From positions 1 to 46,746 of IMG/VR virus record IMGVR_UViG_3300038338_000003: 46,746 bases of DNA; one strand, 5' to 3'. Position 1 is the stretch's first letter. Every line of letters starts with the position of its first letter. Below are positions 32,878 to 41,631 of this stretch, one piece after another. This DNA is from a virus. Under the pieces are notes generated by a model, which saw only the letters and a list, made by a program, of their open reading frames with translations, was not told the DNA's origin and ran no database searches. The position numbers were made by a program, and so were the translations under genes.

Positions 32878-33005
32878 TCAGATACTACCGACGACTTAAC
32901 CGGATAGGCGCCCTTATGGGTATTAAACGTAACTACTGCGGGCTGGAGTCTAACGCGTCGTACGCGCGTAGACTGGCGGCTCACTTTAACGTGGGTGCCG
33001 AGTGA
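32874..33005 (+). CDS. 43-residue basic microprotein
   Basis: Starts in the helicase stop (ATGA) with GAGGAG about ten bases before and ends on the methyltransferase start (TGATG). The peptide (MIRYYRRLNRIGALMGIK, then RNYCGLESNASYARRLAAHF) has nine Arg and one Cys, and is helical. Coupling on both sides argues that it is translated. Function unknown. Confidence 0.65.
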   Translation: MIRYYRRLNRIGALMGIKRNYCGLESNASYARRLAAHFNVGAE

Positions 33006-34294
33006 TGCTTAGATATGGATCGGTATGTAGCGGCATAGAGTCCGCTTCGGTAGCGTGGGAACCGCTGGGAATGAGCGCGGCGTGGTTTAGCGAGATCGAG
33101 AAGTTCCCCTCCGCCGTGCTCGCTCACCACTGGCCACATGTGGCTAACCTCGGGGACATGACCACCCTCCCCTACCTTGTATCCTCCGGCCTTGTGGAAG
33201 CCCCGCCTATTCTGGTGGGTGGTACGCCGTGTCAAGCGTTCAGTATCGCAGGGCTTCGTAAAGGGCTCGAAGACGAGAGAGGGCTGCTTACTATGCGGTA
33301 CGTCGAGCTGGCGGACGCGGTAGACAAGCAACGCGGAGAGGGCGACGAGTGCGTTATCGTGTGGGAGAACGTACCGGGCGTACTCAGCAGCGTGGATAAC
33401 GCTTTCGGATGTTTTTTAGGTGCTCTCGCTGGGGCGGACTGCGCGGCGGAGCCGGGAGAAAAGCCGGAGAACGGTAAAAATAATAAGTATTGGAGATGGA
33501 ATGCAAAATCTAACACCCACGTGGCAAAATGGTCAAATGCAGGTTACTTGTCTGGACCCAAAAGAACAATCGCGTGGAGAGTCCTCGATGCCCAATATTT
33601 CGGAGTGGCCCAACGCCGCCGCCGTGTGTTTGTTGTCGCAAGTGCTAGAGACGGGTTCGATCCCGCAGAGGTACTTTTTGAGCGCGAAGGCGTGCGCCGG
33701 GATACTCCGCCGAGCCGAGAAACGCGGGAAGAAGCTGCCCGGGGCGCTGGAGGTGGCACTGTGGTGTACCGTTGGCAAAACGAAGCTACTGGGGTTGTAG
33801 AAGACGAGATATGTTCAACTTTACTGGCGGGGGGCTGGAAAACGGATGAGCGAAACGTGGGGGCCCTAGTCTGTCATGCTATCTCTGGGGCGGTGATATG
33901 TAGGAAAGAAGGTAATGGCCCTCAGGGACCGGGTATTTACGAGGAGTACGCGCCTACGCTTACAAGTTCTGATAAACACGCTGTTTCGGTCGCTTTTAGA
34001 TACCAAGCAGGCGCAAAAGCCGGGAGCACTGGTCTTATGGAAAACTGCTCCCCGACATTGACCTCCGACGAGAAAGCCCCCGGCGTGTTACGCGAGGGAG
34101 CCGTCCGCCGCTTAACGCCTACCGAGTGCGAACGTCTACAGGGCTTTCCGGATAACCATACGTTAATCCCGTGGCGCGGTAAGGCTGTAGAAGATTGTCC
34201 CGACGGTCCGCGGTATAAAGCTATCGGTAACTCGAAAGCCGTACCCGTTATACAGTGGGTCGGACTACGTGTAGCGCTGGAGTTGCTAAAATGA
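33005..34294 (+). CDS. DNA (cytosine-5) methyltransferase
   Basis: A 429-residue C5 methyltransferase. Motif I is YGSVCSGIESASVAWEPLGM, motif IV holds the catalytic Cys in GGTPCQAFS (73-80), motif VI is ENVPG near 125, motif VIII is QRRRRVFVVA, and motifs IX-X are LTPTECERLQGFPD and AIGNSKAVPV. The target-recognition region (about 215-370) is long and includes AT-rich stretches, e.g. 33470-33580. It probably protects phage DNA from host restriction; no matching endonuclease was seen. ATG 33005 overlaps the previous stop. Confidence 0.93.
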   Translation: MLRYGSVCSGIESASVAWEPLGMSAAWFSEIEKFPSAVLAHHWPHVANLGDMTTLPYLVSSGLVEAPPILVGGTPCQAFSIAGLRKGLEDERGLLTMRYVELADAVDKQRGEGDECVIVWENVPGVLSSVDNAFGCFLGALAGADCAAEPGEKPENGKNNKYWRWNAKSNTHVAKWSNAGYLSGPKRTIAWRVLDAQYFGVAQRRRRVFVVASARDGFDPAEVLFEREGVRRDTPPSRETREEAARGAGGGTVVYRWQNEATGVVEDEICSTLLAGGWKTDERNVGALVCHAISGAVICRKEGNGPQGPGIYEEYAPTLTSSDKHAVSVAFRYQAGAKAGSTGLMENCSPTLTSDEKAPGVLREGAVRRLTPTECERLQGFPDNHTLIPWRGKAVEDCPDGPRYKAIGNSKAVPVIQWVGLRVALELLK

Positions 34295-34598: not shown

Positions 34599-35068
34599 CA
34601 CTCGAACAATGGGCGATTAAGCACGCGATACCCTACGCGGCGGTGCATGAACTACGCGCTATCTTCGGAGCGGTCAATACCGACCCGTCACCGCAGGACG
34701 GCGAGAGCGAAGCGGCAGTCCAGACCCGCGTACGTCTCGAAGCGAGCGCTAAAGGGTGCCGGCTCTTACGTAATAACGTCGGAGTGCTGTACGACGAGCG
34801 GGGGGTGCCTGTGCGCTACGGTCTGGCGAACGACTCTAAGCAGATGAATGATCACATTAAATCGAGTGATCTTATAGGTATCCGGCCGTTACTTATACAG
34901 CCGTATCACGTCGGTAGCGTTCTGGGGCAGTTTATGGCACGGGAGATTAAACCGGGGGCGTGGTCGTACAGCGGAACGGCCCGAGAAGTGGCGCAGCTGC
35001 GCTTTATGGAGCTCGTTGTGTCGATGGGCGGCGACGCGTGCTTCGCAAACGGAGAGGGGACGATATAA
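34595..35068 (+). CDS. VRR-NUC domain nuclease
   Basis: A 157-residue nuclease-type protein. The pattern LRNNVGVLYDERGVPVRYGL, then HIKSSDLIGIRPLLIQ and FMAREIKPGAWSYSGTAREV, fits the VRR-NUC fold, where Glu of the AREIK strand and the Asp of SSDLIG act at the metal site. Such phage proteins may resolve branched DNA or cut host DNA. ATG overlaps the previous stop. Confidence 0.82.
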   Translation: MTLEQWAIKHAIPYAAVHELRAIFGAVNTDPSPQDGESEAAVQTRVRLEASAKGCRLLRNNVGVLYDERGVPVRYGLANDSKQMNDHIKSSDLIGIRPLLIQPYHVGSVLGQFMAREIKPGAWSYSGTAREVAQLRFMELVVSMGGDACFANGEGTI

Positions 35069-35838
35069 TGGATATTAACACGGAAAACGCGCGGCTTATG
35101 TTCGGGGATTGTTTAGAGGTTATGGATGAGCTTATAGCGGAGGGCGTAGTGGTGGGCGCTATTATCTGCGATCCGCCGTACGGTACGACCGCCTGTAAGT
35201 GGGATAACGTTATAGACTTTGATAAGATGTGGCGGAGGCTGGATAGGCTTATAAAACCTAACGGGGCGATAGTTCTCTTTGGTAGTGAGCCTTTTAGTAG
35301 TGCTTTGAGAATGAGTAACATTAGTATGTTTAAATATGATCATATATGGATTCACAATAGAAGTTCAAATTTCGCACAAGCTCCATATCGACCACTTGGA
35401 ATGCACGAAAACGTATCTGTATTTTCAAATGGAGGAAACTCAAAAAACGCAAAATTAAGAATGTCATACTACCCACAAGGGCTTATAAAATTAAAAGAAA
35501 AGAAAATTTGCAAAGCAACAAGGTTAAACGGAAGAGCACATAGGAGCTCAAAAGCAGTTCAAAAGGACTATGTTCAAGAGTATACAAACTACCCGAATAA
35601 TATCTTGGAATATAAAAAAGAAAGTGCTAGATTTCACCCAACTCAAAAACCAGTAGCCCTTATGGAGTATCTAATAAAGACATACACAAATGAAGATGAG
35701 TTAGTTTTAGACTTCACTATGGGCTCCGGCACTACTGGCGTGGCCGCGTGTAACCTCGGGCGTAAGTTCATAGGTATAGAGTTGGGTGCGAAGTATTACG
35801 GGATCGCGTGCGGGAGGGTAATAGATGCAGACACGTAA
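35068..35838 (+). CDS. DNA methyltransferase, amino type (N6-A/N4-C), mosaic
   Basis: A 256-residue beta-class methyltransferase. The catalytic motif IV is DPPYGT (35-40); motif X/I lies at the C-terminal end (RFHPTQKPVALMEYLI, then LDFTMGSGTTGVAAC) for SAM binding. ATG at 35068 overlaps the previous stop (TAATG). Bases 35285-35715 switch to AT-rich codon use (poly-A-rich, host-like), while both ends match the phage, suggesting that the target-recognition domain was replaced. Confidence 0.9.
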   Translation: MDINTENARLMFGDCLEVMDELIAEGVVVGAIICDPPYGTTACKWDNVIDFDKMWRRLDRLIKPNGAIVLFGSEPFSSALRMSNISMFKYDHIWIHNRSSNFAQAPYRPLGMHENVSVFSNGGNSKNAKLRMSYYPQGLIKLKEKKICKATRLNGRAHRSSKAVQKDYVQEYTNYPNNILEYKKESARFHPTQKPVALMEYLIKTYTNEDELVLDFTMGSGTTGVAACNLGRKFIGIELGAKYYGIACGRVIDADT

Positions 35839-36593: not shown

Positions 36594-39245
36594 ATGACTA
36601 CGCTACCAGAAGCGTTACGCCCGCTCGCGGCGTTCGATCAATTCGTATTGTGGACCACCTCGGTACGGGACGGGAAACTCGTAAAACAGCCGATAGACCA
36701 CCGTACCGCGTCGGTAGCTGATGCGCACGACCCAGGCGCGTGGCTATCGGCTGATGAGGCTTGCAGCATTGCGACAGCATACGGGGACAGCTACGGGGTG
36801 GGGTTCGTGTTCACGGCGGATGACCCTTTCTTTTTCTTCGACATAGATAATTGTTTGCTACCGAGCGGCGAGTGGTCCCCCATAGCTATGGAACTCATGG
36901 GGAGATTTCAAGGTGCCGCGGTAGAGGTGTCGCAGTCCGGGCGCGGGTTGCATATAATCGGCGTCGGGACCCCCACTACGCCCTCGTCTGGCAGACGAAA
37001 AAAGGCGGTAGACCCCCTAACAAAAAGTACGTCTGACTTATTCGACCTGTATACGGAGCTCCGTTTCGTCGCGTTGACGGGCTTCTCAGCGCTCGGGTCC
37101 GCCGGGCACGCAGTGGATCAGTCCCAACTCGATTACGTAACGGGCCACTGGCTTAAAATAGACAGCGACCACACGGTGGAGTGGACTGCGGAGCCCGTAA
37201 ACGGGTATACCGGCCCGGAGGACGATGACGAGCTTATCTCCCGCGCCCTCGCACGCAAGAGTGCGGCCTCAGTATTTAATAAAAGCGTTTCATTTCAGGA
37301 TCTATGGGAGTGCAACGAGGACGCGTTCGAGGGGGTGTATATAGACGACCAGGGGCGTAACCCGTACGACCGTAGCTCTGTAGATGCGGCTTTCGCTCAA
37401 CATTTAGCGTTCTGGACGGGTAAGAACTGCGAGCGTATGCTCCGTATTATGAAACGCTCCGGGCTCGTGCGTGATAAATGGGACCGGGAGGACTATCTGG
37501 AGCGCACGATCCTGAAAGCGGTATCTATGCAGAAAGAGGTATACTCTACGGCTCCGGCCGATACGGCCGCTGCGGATAGCGTGGGCGCGTGCAAACTGAG
37601 AGGGTCGGACGCGCAGGTAAAATATGCTGATAACGTCCGTGCGCTTAAGCTGTCGGAGTGTAAAGCTAACGAGGCGCTATCCCTCCAGCTCGCGAAAGTT
37701 CAGTCCGCTAAGTTCTGGATAGACAATAAAGACAAGACCCCCGAAGAGCTCGGCGCTATGATCACCCCCGTAGAGTCCGCAGCCGATCCGCTCGGGTGCC
37801 CTGTCGCAGGCCCCCAGGTCGTCGCCGGCTTTCAGTACCTCGGCGCTACTCAGCAGGTAGAGCATTTTAAGGGGTGCATGTATGTGCAGGATGTACACCG
37901 CGTGCTTACCCCCAGAGGTACCATGCTTAAAACGGAGCAGTTTAACGCTACGTACGGCGGGTATAGCTTTCAGCTGGACGATAGCGGCGATAAGACCACG
38001 CGCAAAGCGTGGGAGGCGTTTACAGAGTCGCAGATCCTACGTTACCCGAAGGCCGAGTCTACGTGCTTTAGACCGGAGCACGGTTTCGGGGAGGTACTGG
38101 GGGAGGACGGCTTCTCCCTGGTGAATACCTATCTACCTATTAACACCCCCGCCATAGCCGGCGATCCGTCCAAGTTTACGGGGCTTATCTCTAAACTACT
38201 CCCCGACGAGAGAGACCGCCGCATACTGTTAACGTACATCGCCGCGCTCGTCCAGAATCCGGGGCGTAAATTCCAGTGGTGGCCTGTGCTGCAGGGAACG
38301 GAGGGGAACGGTAAGACCGCAATAGTGAGCGCTATAACGTACGCGGTAGGCTCCAGATACACGCACTGCCCCAATGTGGACGAGATCTCCAAGAGTGGAA
38401 ATAAGTTTAACGGCTGGATACGCGGTAGACTTTTCGTAGGCATGGAGGAGGTATACGTGGCTAACCGCCGCGACTTCCTAGAGGCATTTAAGACCACGGT
38501 TACGAACGACCGACTACCGATAGAGTCTAAAGGCGTTGACCAGATAATGGGTGATAACCGCGCGAATGGCATCATGTGTACGAATCATAAAGAGGGCGTC
38601 CCGATCACGATAGACGGGCGCCGTTACTGTGTTTTCTTTACCGCGCAGCAGAGTAAAGCGGATAGGGTACGTGACGGTATGGGTGGTAGATACTTCCCGG
38701 ACCTATACGACTGGCTTAACGGCCGGGGAGAGTACGCGTCAATGGGCGAGAACTACGGATTTAAAGTTGTTAACCACTACCTTAAGACGTACGAGCTGTG
38801 CGAAGAGTTCAACCCGGCGGGAGCGTGCCAGGAGGCGCCGGTAACGAGTAGCACTAAAGACGCTGTGCAGGCTTCCCTCGGCGGCGTTGAGCAGGAGATC
38901 CTGGAAGCTATCGCCGAAGGTCGCCCGGGCTTCGCTAACGGTTGGGTGTCCTCCGTGGCGGTAGAGAGACTACTGGACGGTATGCGTATGGCACGATCGA
39001 TAGCACACAATAAACGCCGTGAGCTGCTACAGTCGCTCGGGTACGACTGGCACCCGGCGTTGCGGGACGGGCGCGTTAATAATCCTATCCCTATGGACGA
39101 GAACAAAAAGCCGAGACTGTTTATAAAGGTCGGGCATGTAAACGCTAATATAGCATCCCCGGCGGACGTCGCTAAGACGTACCAGGACGATCAGGGGGCG
39201 GGCGTAACGTCCACGGGTCAAGCAGCGGAGGTGTTTAATGCCTAG
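36594..39245 (+). CDS. Primase-helicase, P4/D5 type
   Basis: An 883-residue fusion. The N-terminal AEP-like primase part has FFFFDIDN (about 79-86) with acidic metal ligands and GRGLHIIG near 119. The C-terminal part is an SF3/D5-type helicase with Walker A GTEGNGKT at about 568, MEEVYV and the later Asn motif DNRANGIMCTNHKEG. A C-terminal domain follows. It should start replication and unwind DNA, working with the polymerase at 24812. Begins one base after the TetR-like stop, so both share a transcript. Confidence 0.93.
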   Translation: MTTLPEALRPLAAFDQFVLWTTSVRDGKLVKQPIDHRTASVADAHDPGAWLSADEACSIATAYGDSYGVGFVFTADDPFFFFDIDNCLLPSGEWSPIAMELMGRFQGAAVEVSQSGRGLHIIGVGTPTTPSSGRRKKAVDPLTKSTSDLFDLYTELRFVALTGFSALGSAGHAVDQSQLDYVTGHWLKIDSDHTVEWTAEPVNGYTGPEDDDELISRALARKSAASVFNKSVSFQDLWECNEDAFEGVYIDDQGRNPYDRSSVDAAFAQHLAFWTGKNCERMLRIMKRSGLVRDKWDREDYLERTILKAVSMQKEVYSTAPADTAAADSVGACKLRGSDAQVKYADNVRALKLSECKANEALSLQLAKVQSAKFWIDNKDKTPEELGAMITPVESAADPLGCPVAGPQVVAGFQYLGATQQVEHFKGCMYVQDVHRVLTPRGTMLKTEQFNATYGGYSFQLDDSGDKTTRKAWEAFTESQILRYPKAESTCFRPEHGFGEVLGEDGFSLVNTYLPINTPAIAGDPSKFTGLISKLLPDERDRRILLTYIAALVQNPGRKFQWWPVLQGTEGNGKTAIVSAITYAVGSRYTHCPNVDEISKSGNKFNGWIRGRLFVGMEEVYVANRRDFLEAFKTTVTNDRLPIESKGVDQIMGDNRANGIMCTNHKEGVPITIDGRRYCVFFTAQQSKADRVRDGMGGRYFPDLYDWLNGRGEYASMGENYGFKVVNHYLKTYELCEEFNPAGACQEAPVTSSTKDAVQASLGGVEQEILEAIAEGRPGFANGWVSSVAVERLLDGMRMARSIAHNKRRELLQSLGYDWHPALRDGRVNNPIPMDENKKPRLFIKVGHVNANIASPADVAKTYQDDQGAGVTSTGQAAEVFNA

Positions 39246-39342
39246 CGTTACGTGCACTTGCCCTCGATGTGGCGGCCCCGCTACGTGTTCTTCCGCTGGG
39301 CGCCTGTGGTGCTCTAACTGTAAATACGGTACCGGAAAATGA
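39238..39342 (+). CDS. 34-residue zinc-ribbon microprotein
   Basis: Starts eight bases inside the primase end and shares ATGA with the next gene. MPSVTCTCPRCGGPATCS then SAGRLWCSNCKYGTGK: six Cys, with CPRC and CSNC knuckles 17 residues apart, the pattern of a zinc ribbon. GGAGG lies about nine bases before the ATG. Could be a small nucleic-acid or protein-binding partner of the PP-loop protein next to it. Function unknown. Confidence 0.7.
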   Translation: MPSVTCTCPRCGGPATCSSAGRLWCSNCKYGTGK

Positions 39343-40169
39343 AAGATATAATCGTATCTTTCAGTGGTGGGGCTACGAGCGGATTTATGTGCAAATGGCT
39401 TATAGATAATATGTCGCATGTATTTAACTTACACTTCGTTTACGCGAATACGGGGCAGGAGCATGAAAATACGCTTAAATTCGTCGACCAGTGCGATAAA
39501 GCTTTCGGGCTAAATCTAACGTGGGTGGAGGCTGTAGTGCGCCACGGTGTTAGAAAAGCCTCCGGGTGTCGCATAGTCGATTTTAAAACGGCGGATCGCA
39601 GGGGGCGGGTGTTCGAAGATATGATCTCTAAATACGGTATCCCTAATAAAACATACCCGCATTGTACCAGAGAATTAAAAATACACCCTATGCGGGCGTG
39701 GGCGGAGTCCCAAGGGTTAAAGGGTGCCACGTTTGCGCTCGGTATCCGCGCAGACGAACCCAAACGTATAAAACGCGGAAACGGCAAACTGTACCCCTTA
39801 GTAGACCTAGTGAGCGTCACTAAAGAGGACGTGCTGGAGTGGTGGGGTAAACAACCGTTTAAATTGGACCTCCCCGAGCATTTAGGTAACTGTACATGGT
39901 GCTGGAAAAAGTCCTTACGTAAACTGTTAACTATTACTGCCGACCACCCCGAGATCATGGAGTTCCCTCTATTTATGGAGGCTAAATACGGCCACATAAC
40001 TACAAACGCGGATATATGCGAACGCCGCGTATTCTTTAGAGAGACGCGATCCACAGCGGATATAATAAATATGGCTAACGGGGATTTCGACCCGTTTGTG
40101 GACCTTAATTATGAGGACTGCGCGGAAGAGTGCGGGAGCGTGTTTCCAGATGAGATTCATAGTAGCTAA
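39339..40169 (+). CDS. PP-loop ATPase, PAPS-reductase-like
   Basis: A 276-residue adenine-nucleotide alpha-hydrolase-fold protein. The PP-loop is SFSGGATSG at 7-15 (SGGxxS). Further family marks are VYANTGQEHENT, PHCTRELK, LGIRADEPKRI and GNCTWCWKKS, whose CxxC may bind metal. Such genes are common in phages, where the substrate is unknown; sulfur handling, queuosine-like or DNA modification have been proposed. Standing beside two methyltransferases it could belong to a DNA-modification set. Confidence 0.82.
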   Translation: MKDIIVSFSGGATSGFMCKWLIDNMSHVFNLHFVYANTGQEHENTLKFVDQCDKAFGLNLTWVEAVVRHGVRKASGCRIVDFKTADRRGRVFEDMISKYGIPNKTYPHCTRELKIHPMRAWAESQGLKGATFALGIRADEPKRIKRGNGKLYPLVDLVSVTKEDVLEWWGKQPFKLDLPEHLGNCTWCWKKSLRKLLTITADHPEIMEFPLFMEAKYGHITTNADICERRVFFRETRSTADIINMANGDFDPFVDLNYEDCAEECGSVFPDEIHSS

Positions 40170-40413
40170 GAGCGCGAGTGTGGCCGCCGCGCAGTTACGG
40201 GAGATGGGCGCCACGCCGGTTGACGGTAAAGGCCGCTGCCTGCATATACGTGGCGTAGCGATACGTATAGTAGATATCGGCCAGGGTGGGGCGCTTAACG
40301 GGCGAGAGCCCGGCACTTTAGTGTATTTGGGTTATCAGTTTTGGAATAGGCCCGACTGGGACCAATTAAGAGAGATTATCCGCGCTCGCAAGTACGAGAC
40401 GCTGGAGTTATAA
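40150..40413 (+). CDS. Hypothetical protein after the PP-loop gene
   Basis: Not recognised. Eighty-seven residues (RFIVAKSASVAAAQLREM, GRCLHIRGVAIRIVDIGQG, YLGYQFWNRPDWDQLREI), mixed alpha/beta. ATG at 40150 overlaps the PP-loop gene by 20 bases. Its 3' end overlaps the convergent gene at 40376-40540 by 38 bases. Last gene of the rightward block. Confidence 0.65.
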   Translation: MRFIVAKSASVAAAQLREMGATPVDGKGRCLHIRGVAIRIVDIGQGGALNGREPGTLVYLGYQFWNRPDWDQLREIIRARKYETLEL

Positions 40414-40540
40414 ACGCCCCTAAGCATGTCAGGAGTGCCACGGCTCGCATGATACGTGTTTCGTAGCGTATGAGCCATTTATAGAAGTTGTCACGCGCGA
40501 TTGGAGCCTTGAACCAGCAGTTTGTAAGTAGTCGTTTCAT
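40376..40540 (-). CDS. Hypothetical 54-residue basic membrane-like protein
   Basis: MKRLLTNCWFKAPIARDN then FYKWLIRYETRIMRAVALLT, with a hydrophobic stretch MRAVALLTCLGAFITPA. AAAGG lies seven bases before ATG 40540, and it overlaps the YopX gene stop. The tail-to-tail overlap with the rightward gene is unusual. Moderate support. Confidence 0.5.
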   Translation of the reverse strand: MKRLLTNCWFKAPIARDNFYKWLIRYETRIMRAVALLTCLGAFITPASRTCERG

Positions 40541-40947
40541 TGGTTGGCCTTTAGGTGTTCTTCCCATTGGGTTGATATGACTTCTACATAAGCCTCGCTA
40601 CCTAGCGTGCATTGCACACCCGCAAAATAGTAAATGTAGAAAGTAAGTGTATCTTCATTCCACTTTACATAAAACTCCTTACGCACACTACCCGCGTAAA
40701 CATTATCCCCACCAAACTCGGCCCCAGCAACACCGCAGAAAATAGGCGTACCGTCTTTATCATCTTTACCTGTGTAAATTCCTATGCTGTCTGGGTGGGC
40801 TTTTTTACGCTCCCCCTTTTCGTCATAAATGTAATACTCTTTAACTCCATTAAAAGTTAGAATTACTAAAGAACCGTAGAACCATTCTTTCGTTTCTTCC
40901 GACCAACCACGGAAAGTAGTTAGTGCTGTGTAGTTGTGCTCGTTCAT
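40537..40947 (-). CDS. YopX-family protein
   Basis: A 136-residue protein of the YopX phage family: TTFRGWSEETKEWFYGSLV at the start, then DSIGIYTGKDDKDGTPIFCG, in which the family usually has GxxTGxxDxxGxxIFEGD, and a final strand set. The ATG at 40947 overlaps the upstream TGA (ATGA), with GAGGAGAC nine bases before. The frame is also open back to 41631, giving a possible 364-residue ORF whose middle does not look like protein. Function of YopX proteins is unknown. Confidence 0.75.
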   Translation of the reverse strand: MNEHNYTALTTFRGWSEETKEWFYGSLVILTFNGVKEYYIYDEKGERKKAHPDSIGIYTGKDDKDGTPIFCGVAGAEFGGDNVYAGSVRKEFYVKWNEDTLTFYIYYFAGVQCTLGSEAYVEVISTQWEEHLKANQ

Positions 40948-41631
40948 GACAGAGTCTCCTCTATCTCTTTGGCTGTGAGTTCCGTTAGCCATTCGTCTTT
41001 TGGGGTTGTTCCTTCTGGAAGGGGGGCAATCGTCAAACGGAAAACAAGATAAAGAATAAGTGTGAAATTTTTTATCTTTTCCGTTGTTATGTATTGAGTA
41101 CCCACATAAGCGATATAGGTGCCCTGCCACGTCCGTCGTGTGCCATCTCCCATTCCGGTCACACACTTCTACAATAACAAACTCCCCATTAGCATAAGAC
41201 CATGCAAGCACTTTATCCCAATCCAGTTTATAGACTTTGAGGGTGTAATGTCCTTTGAGTTTATCAAAGCTGCAAACCTCTTTAACTTCATCGTAAGCTC
41301 TAGCTCCCCAAAATATTTTTACCACATACCCAAGTGCTTCAAGCTCTTCTTTTTGTTTCTTTAGGTGAGCGTGAGGGTCTGTTGGTTTCTTTAGTCCCCA
41401 TGTGACTTTGAAGTCTTTTGAGTTTTCAAAGATCTCTTTGGCTTTCTCATACAGCCTCTGACTTACACCTTGTGCCCTAACTAACTCATTCGGTTGTTTT
41501 TTACCAAACTCTACGGTACAACTAAGGTGGTTTACCAGTTCCGTCTGGATGTAGTCAGGTGCCTCGACCTTGATCCACTCAAGATCCTCACGTGGCGGGA
41601 ATTCTTCCGGTGTTAAATATTCGTTACCCAT
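40944..41631 (-). pseudogene. Accessory gene, apparently frameshifted
   Basis: From ATG 41631 a protein-like sequence runs to about base 41150 (EDLEWIKVEAPDYIQTEL, SQRLYEKAKEIFENSKDF, GEFVIVEVCDRNGRWH). After that the same frame turns into Cys/Arg/Ser-rich sequence, whereas the +1 frame becomes protein-like (TYIAYVGTQYITTEKIKN, then PKDEWLTELTAKEIEETLS) and stops at 40944, exactly on the YopX start. A one-base insertion near 41110-41160 or a programmed shift would join them into a protein of about 228 residues. Product not recognised. AT-rich region. Confidence 0.6.

Follow-up and report, generated by a model that had tools for sequence, protein, structure and literature searches.

An occupied and an empty site for a NinC-type PP-loop gene downstream of a phage primase

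A PP-loop gene located downstream of the primase in the virus record IMGVR_UViG_3300038338_000003 forms, together with the small zinc-ribbon open reading frame (ORF) at its head, a unit of ca. 912 bp that is missing at the same site in a sister phage. The window studied here is the whole IMG/VR record (46,746 bases), and the third gene of the group, coding for a protein of 87 amino acids (aa), belongs to the transcription unit of the primase. The PP-loop protein is homologous to lambda NinC and, by sequence profile, a new member of phrog_424. The joint explanation that we favor, with a probability of roughly 0.6, is that NinC-type genes are mobile stand-alone accessory genes whose products would carry out sulfur chemistry. 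The genetic part, i.e., the identity of the genes, the empty site together with two more occupied/empty pairs, and the lack of a conserved partner gene, is well supported, while the chemical mechanism taken alone falls short of an even chance.

An empty site in a sister phage

Three overlapping genes follow the primase, as the initial annotation had described (Table 1). The ATG of the zinc-ribbon ORF overlaps the primase stop codon (39245), an ATGA overlap joins the zinc-ribbon stop to the PP-loop start, and the end of the PP-loop ORF overlaps the 87-aa gene by 20 bp. The annotation had also taken the three as a single cassette, and this is contradicted by L048, a 9.3-kb contig that carries the primase as well as the one detectable relative of the 87-aa protein in the viral collection (91% identical). 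There, the 87-aa gene comes directly after the primase, without the zinc ribbon and the PP-loop gene. In the blastn comparison of the window and L048 (96.6–99.1% identity in the longest shared blocks, mostly 90–94% in the shorter ones, and mostly 94–99% in those around the insert) the blocks stop at 39241 and restart at 40135, with ca. 15 bp of microhomology, so that L048 is missing the zinc ribbon and all but a small part of the PP-loop gene. The Shine-Dalgarno/ATG sequence GGAGGTGTTTAATG starts the zinc ribbon in the window and the 87-aa gene in L048, and the right junction, GGAGCGTGTTTCCAGATG, resembles this left one. The 87-aa gene is assigned to the primase unit because the L048 primase runs straight into it with the other two genes absent. 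What stands of the one-unit claim is that microprotein and PP-loop gene were gained or lost together; the 87-aa gene lies outside.

Table 1. Coordinates of the genes and junctions around the insert and of the two methyltransferases in the window.
Feature	Position	Strand	Evidence	Remark
C5-type methyltransferase	33002–34294			
N4/N6-type methyltransferase	34960–35838			
Primase/helicase (NrS-1-type HBD, DUF5906)	36594–39245	+	phrog_1829 (E 2e-135), PF22763, PF19263	Left flank, outside the insert
Shine-Dalgarno and start codon GGAGGTGTTTAATG	39227–39240	+	Aligned junctions	Left junction of the insert
Six-Cys zinc-ribbon microprotein, 34 aa	39238–39342	+		First gene of the insert
NinC-type PP-loop/PAPS-reductase-fold protein, 276 aa	39339–40169	+	phrog_424 (E 9.2e-50)	
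Stretch missing in L048	39242–40149	+	blastn blocks, aligned junctions	Occupied versus empty site, ATG to ATG
Right junction GGAGCGTGTTTCCAGATG	40135–40152	+		Within the PP-loop ORF; gives the 87-aa gene its start codon
Protein of unknown family, 87 aa	40150–40413	+	91% identical in L048	Primase unit, outside the insert

In two outgroups, SppYZU01 and Scuro (primases 54 and 49% identical, respectively), the annotation shows no PP-loop gene behind the primase, and the guanine plus cytosine (GC) content of the PP-loop gene is 47.6% versus 56.5% for the primase, which together make a gain of the insert appear more likely than its loss. The opposite scenario would be an ancestral three-gene operon from which L048 deleted the first two genes between short repeats. 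The microhomology of GGAGGTGTTTAATG and GGAGCGTGTTTCCAGATG fits such an event, but L048 keeps the primase-side sequence through the ATG with no repeat hybrid and, given also the outgroups and the lower GC of the PP-loop gene, we regard deletion as unlikely.

Similar situations were found in two other sets of phages. L193 and L196 contain a NinC-type gene alone, preceded in the L193 pair by a short leader, itself part of the insert and equipped with a ribosome-binding site of its own, and L200, L202 and L203 lack it over flanks that are mostly 90–97% identical. In lambda, ninC (L061:1580–2460) is bordered on both sides by a 10-bp direct repeat, GCTGCATGAT; in mEpX2 the site is empty, ninB being joined to ninD over flanks 97–98% identical to those of lambda. 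In all three pairs, that of the window and L048 included, the insert extends approximately from one start codon to another. These comparisons are good evidence that the NinC-type gene behaves as a mobile accessory gene, apparently moving alone or in small units. The overlap of the PP-loop ORF end with the start of the next gene, seen in 58 of 115 family members, is ordinary phage gene packing.

The 87-aa protein had no Pfam, PHROG or NCBIfam match and gave a poor AlphaFold model (predicted local distance difference test, pLDDT, of 54). Its ratio of nonsynonymous to synonymous substitution rates (dN/dS), available for the single pair formed by the window and L048, was 0.25, and the gene looks to be under purifying selection. 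Its 3' end is overlapped by a small ORF on the minus strand (40376–40567), the C-terminal GAFITPASRTCERG of which is kept in L048, and just past this ORF L048 has ca. 530 extra bases. On the other side of the insert, the N-terminal part of the primase (36645–37392 versus L048:2630–3345) is diverged between flanks that are 94–97% identical, suggesting that recombination occurred within this gene.

The PP-loop protein and the NinC family

The phrog_424 profile covers residues 3–262 of the protein, i.e., nearly its full length, and lambda NinC (Orf290; phrog_424/phrog_33262) is 34% identical over 247 aa (E 4e-40). The profile also matched all 28 aligned relatives, which show little or no variation in an SFSGGxTS loop, Cys109, NCxxC and a C-terminal CxxxC. 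The window protein has them all (SFSGGATS, C109, N184-C185-x2-C188-W-K-K-S and C261-x3-C265), and shares with lambda NinC the loop and all five cysteines. Over 118 distinct relatives, SGGxTS was found in 111, the middle cysteine and NCxxCxK in 117 each and the C-terminal CxxxC in 94. Close relatives in cellular genomes amounted to one match, at 43% identity. That this is a PP-loop enzyme of a phage-wide family without a known substrate, as first proposed, is borne out.

The AlphaFold2 model (pLDDT 89, falling below 50 in the tail 260–276 that contains the last two cysteines) matched the reductases of 3'-phosphoadenosine 5'-phosphosulfate (PAPS) and adenosine 5'-phosphosulfate (APS), i.e., CysH, and also LarE, NcsA and TtuA (Z 10–11.6). 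The top Foldseek match was 6vpu (VIA Z 11.3–11.6). Such a likeness in fold gives no substrate. The usual annotation of viral "PAPS reductases" would make the protein a CysH-type auxiliary metabolic gene product, serving cysteine synthesis by the reduction of PAPS or APS, a reading made for other viral examples (PMC7785012). The solved folds closest to it do include CysH and APS reductase (Z 11–11.6), and the cysteine on a mobile C-terminal tail recalls these assimilatory enzymes. Nevertheless, we consider this improbable: the CysH motif ECG(L/I/V)H, present in the Escherichia coli enzyme, was absent from the window protein and from all 118 relatives, PF01507 is limited to residues 4–63 (E 1.9e-9), the single-sequence search matched no solved CysH, and the protein differs from CysH in its first loop and in carrying the C-terminal CxxxC. 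The zero count among the relatives is a warning against counting NinC-type genes as genes of CysH-type sulfate assimilation.

The protein could also be a thiolase of the TtcA, NcsA or TtuA kind that changes the tRNA of host or phage in the course of infection, for which no partner gene would be needed. The structural matches to NcsA and TtuA (Z ca. 10–11) and three conserved cysteines that are candidates for holding a cluster point in this direction, LarE sharing with them the fold and several cysteines able to hold an iron-sulfur (Fe-S) cluster. Against it, no RNA-binding domain was identified beyond the fold, and the canonical SGGxDS loop was found in none of the 118 relatives, the window protein having SGGATS. 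SGGxDS is the PP-loop of proven ATP pyrophosphatases. A tRNA thiolase thus seems unlikely to us.

DNA phosphorothioation by a DndC/SspD-like enzyme, using a host desulfurase and DNA-nicking partners, is the third possibility. DndC, SspD and BrxP belong to the PP-loop superfamily, SspD is known to bind the desulfurase SspA (PMC7188994), and the PADLOC model of SspD matched both the window protein (E 5.8e-11) and lambda NinC (E 1.8e-14). This match, however, is confined to residues 5–144, leaving the C-terminal half unmatched, and as evidence for phosphorothioation it was rejected since the model is not specific, with matches in 7 of 14 control genomes. Models for the partners DndD, DndE, SspB and SspC matched none of the ten other window proteins scanned, although host genes could serve in their place. 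Altogether, phosphorothioation appears quite improbable.

The best solved relative of the family profile at the sequence level was PptA (PDB 21fy; E 2.9e-5), whose CTxxLK and NCxxC motifs are similar, but the alignment is significant over the first 65 positions only; we found no paper on this protein. In L020 a second PP-loop gene of another type follows directly after the NinC-type gene (from ca. 5842) and resembles PptA by eye. Two PAPS-reductase-like genes are found in a Salmonella chi-like phage.

The microprotein, the neighboring genes and the methyltransferases

The microprotein has two CxxC knuckles, C8-x2-C11 and C25-x2-C28, plus C6 and C17, and its ATG is preceded by a strong Shine-Dalgarno sequence. 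It was the sole ORF of 28–90 codons in the window with a Shine-Dalgarno sequence and at least two CxxC motifs, against a mean of 0.01 ORFs of this kind in dinucleotide shuffles of the window, and is therefore beyond chance. No Pfam family matched, and the best PHROG and NCBIfam hits (E 0.042 and 0.085) connect it to no named family. The search for a phage relative gave as its best candidate a transposase-like zinc finger of a jumbo phage, discarded at E 0.02. The ribosome-binding site of the PP-loop gene is weak and its ATG overlaps the zinc-ribbon stop, so translation of the two genes is likely coupled.

The microprotein had been suggested as a sulfur or metal carrier of the enzyme or as its DNA-targeting subunit. 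As a general partner this is contradicted by the relatives, since none of the 118 had a comparable zinc-ribbon microprotein within 700 bp upstream, and its candidacy as a conserved companion of the PP-loop gene was rejected on these grounds. Near the 118 relatives we found four matches to the cysteine motif in total. NinD and NinF of lambda lie downstream and are the only plausible downstream cases, the one downstream in L024 being a short distant ORF without gene-like signs. The lone upstream match, in L033, lies 395 bp away in an ORF of 36 codons; its cysteine spacings overlap and, again, it has no gene-like signs. In lambda the Cys-rich NinD follows the enzyme, whereas in the window the zinc ribbon precedes it, and the two sequences showed no relationship. 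NinD was also rejected as an obligate partner of NinC: of the 216 phage records that contain it, the annotated cases shown have it mostly after NinB without NinC in between. Regarding co-occurrence, the check initially proposed, microprotein and PP-loop gene do go together at this site, but the 87-aa gene is separate and the relatives have no such microprotein.

No cluster of neighboring genes was present in more than 8 of 62 groups of relatives. The most recurrent neighbors look, by inspection of their sequences rather than by profile search, like DNA polymerase, C5-methyltransferase, helicases and Rap/NinG. The C5-methyltransferase was not enriched near the relatives (7 of 45 versus 9 of 82 in controls, p = 0.58) in what is a rough test, its controls being the neighborhoods of three replication genes with one small set (9 loci).

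This bears on the proposal that the three genes act together with two nearby methyltransferases as a system that modifies DNA or nucleotides, the microprotein being its carrier or targeting subunit. Both methyltransferases are real genes (Table 1) within 7 kb, the three genes overlap, and DndC and SspD, of the same superfamily, act in DNA phosphorothioation (PMC10853773). Nonetheless, both methyltransferases are kept in L048, as is the 87-aa gene, although the PP-loop gene and the zinc ribbon are absent; with the missing enrichment and the relatives devoid of an upstream microprotein, we give such a system hardly any credence, and the link to the methyltransferases is unsupported. Modification of nucleic acids by the PP-loop enzyme alone is possible. 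As separate observations, a stretch of 182 bp within the C5-methyltransferase (33553–33734) is 90–92% identical in DNA to several Vibrio phages, the right arm having otherwise no Vibrio-phage matches at this level, and the N4/N6-methyltransferase has 44% GC within a region of 55–58%, suggesting another recent acquisition as likely.

Proposed function and relevance

The explanation we prefer is that the PP-loop gene, headed by the zinc-ribbon ORF of 34 codons, came to lie between primase and 87-aa gene by insertion, leaving both neighbors intact because the insertion would run from start codon to start codon. NinC-type genes would be accessory to the replication and recombination regions of phages, and lambda ninC is alike in being inserted in the same manner among such genes. 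As to the chemistry, an adenine nucleotide may be bound in the PP-loop-like site, Cys109 and Cys185-x2-Cys188 may form a site for an Fe-S cluster or a metal, and the C-terminal CxxxC, on its flexible tail, could swing in to deliver or reduce sulfur. Host factors such as IscS and thioredoxin, rather than the microprotein, would serve the enzyme, the zinc ribbon being a putative co-acquired small protein with translation coupled to that of the enzyme. The protein would then most likely be a stand-alone enzyme of sulfur transfer or reduction fed by the host, acting probably on a nucleotide or nucleic acid. Any benefit should be conditional, since lambda grows without ninC, a non-essential gene (PMC10695390). 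NinC is also missing from the list of lambda two-hybrid interactions (PMC3224144), and our literature search found neither a paper on its biochemistry nor a known role.

Several points weigh against this explanation. L048 is only a 9.3-kb contig, and a copy of the PP-loop gene elsewhere in that phage is possible. Gain of the insert is favored over loss but unproven. The pair of zinc ribbon and PP-loop gene was found in one phage alone, and for this reason their functional coupling can be neither demonstrated nor excluded. Lastly, the use of ATP is uncertain given that the SGGxDS loop is missing in the relatives.

What is new is a NinC family member with clear boundaries, along with good evidence that such genes move singly or in small units. 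A comparable pattern has been described for the Thermus phage Tsatsa, where related phages differ in having or lacking a PAPS-reductase-like gene between conserved genes (PMC11437467). The natural empty site corrects the three-gene unit and tells which genes have to be tested together and, as the family includes NinC, the question can be addressed directly in lambda, among the best-studied phages. A broader and speculative idea, which we hold to be rather unlikely as a whole, is that NinC-type proteins are sulfur enzymes of a separate kind, apart from CysH, DndC and the tRNA thiolases and marked by a particular set of cysteines. They would work alone, be exchanged widely, modify a nucleotide or nucleic acid of either phage or host for a conditional advantage, e.g., counter-defence, and spread as single start-to-start genes.

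The rest of the window contains genes of a tailed phage, namely a gpA-type terminase, portal, family A DNA polymerase, DUF2800 nuclease and helicase, together with the two DNA methyltransferases, a TetR-like regulator and the primase. On the minus strand, 40537–41631 codes for a protein of 364 aa with a weak YopX-like match in its C-terminal part, below the Pfam cut-off.

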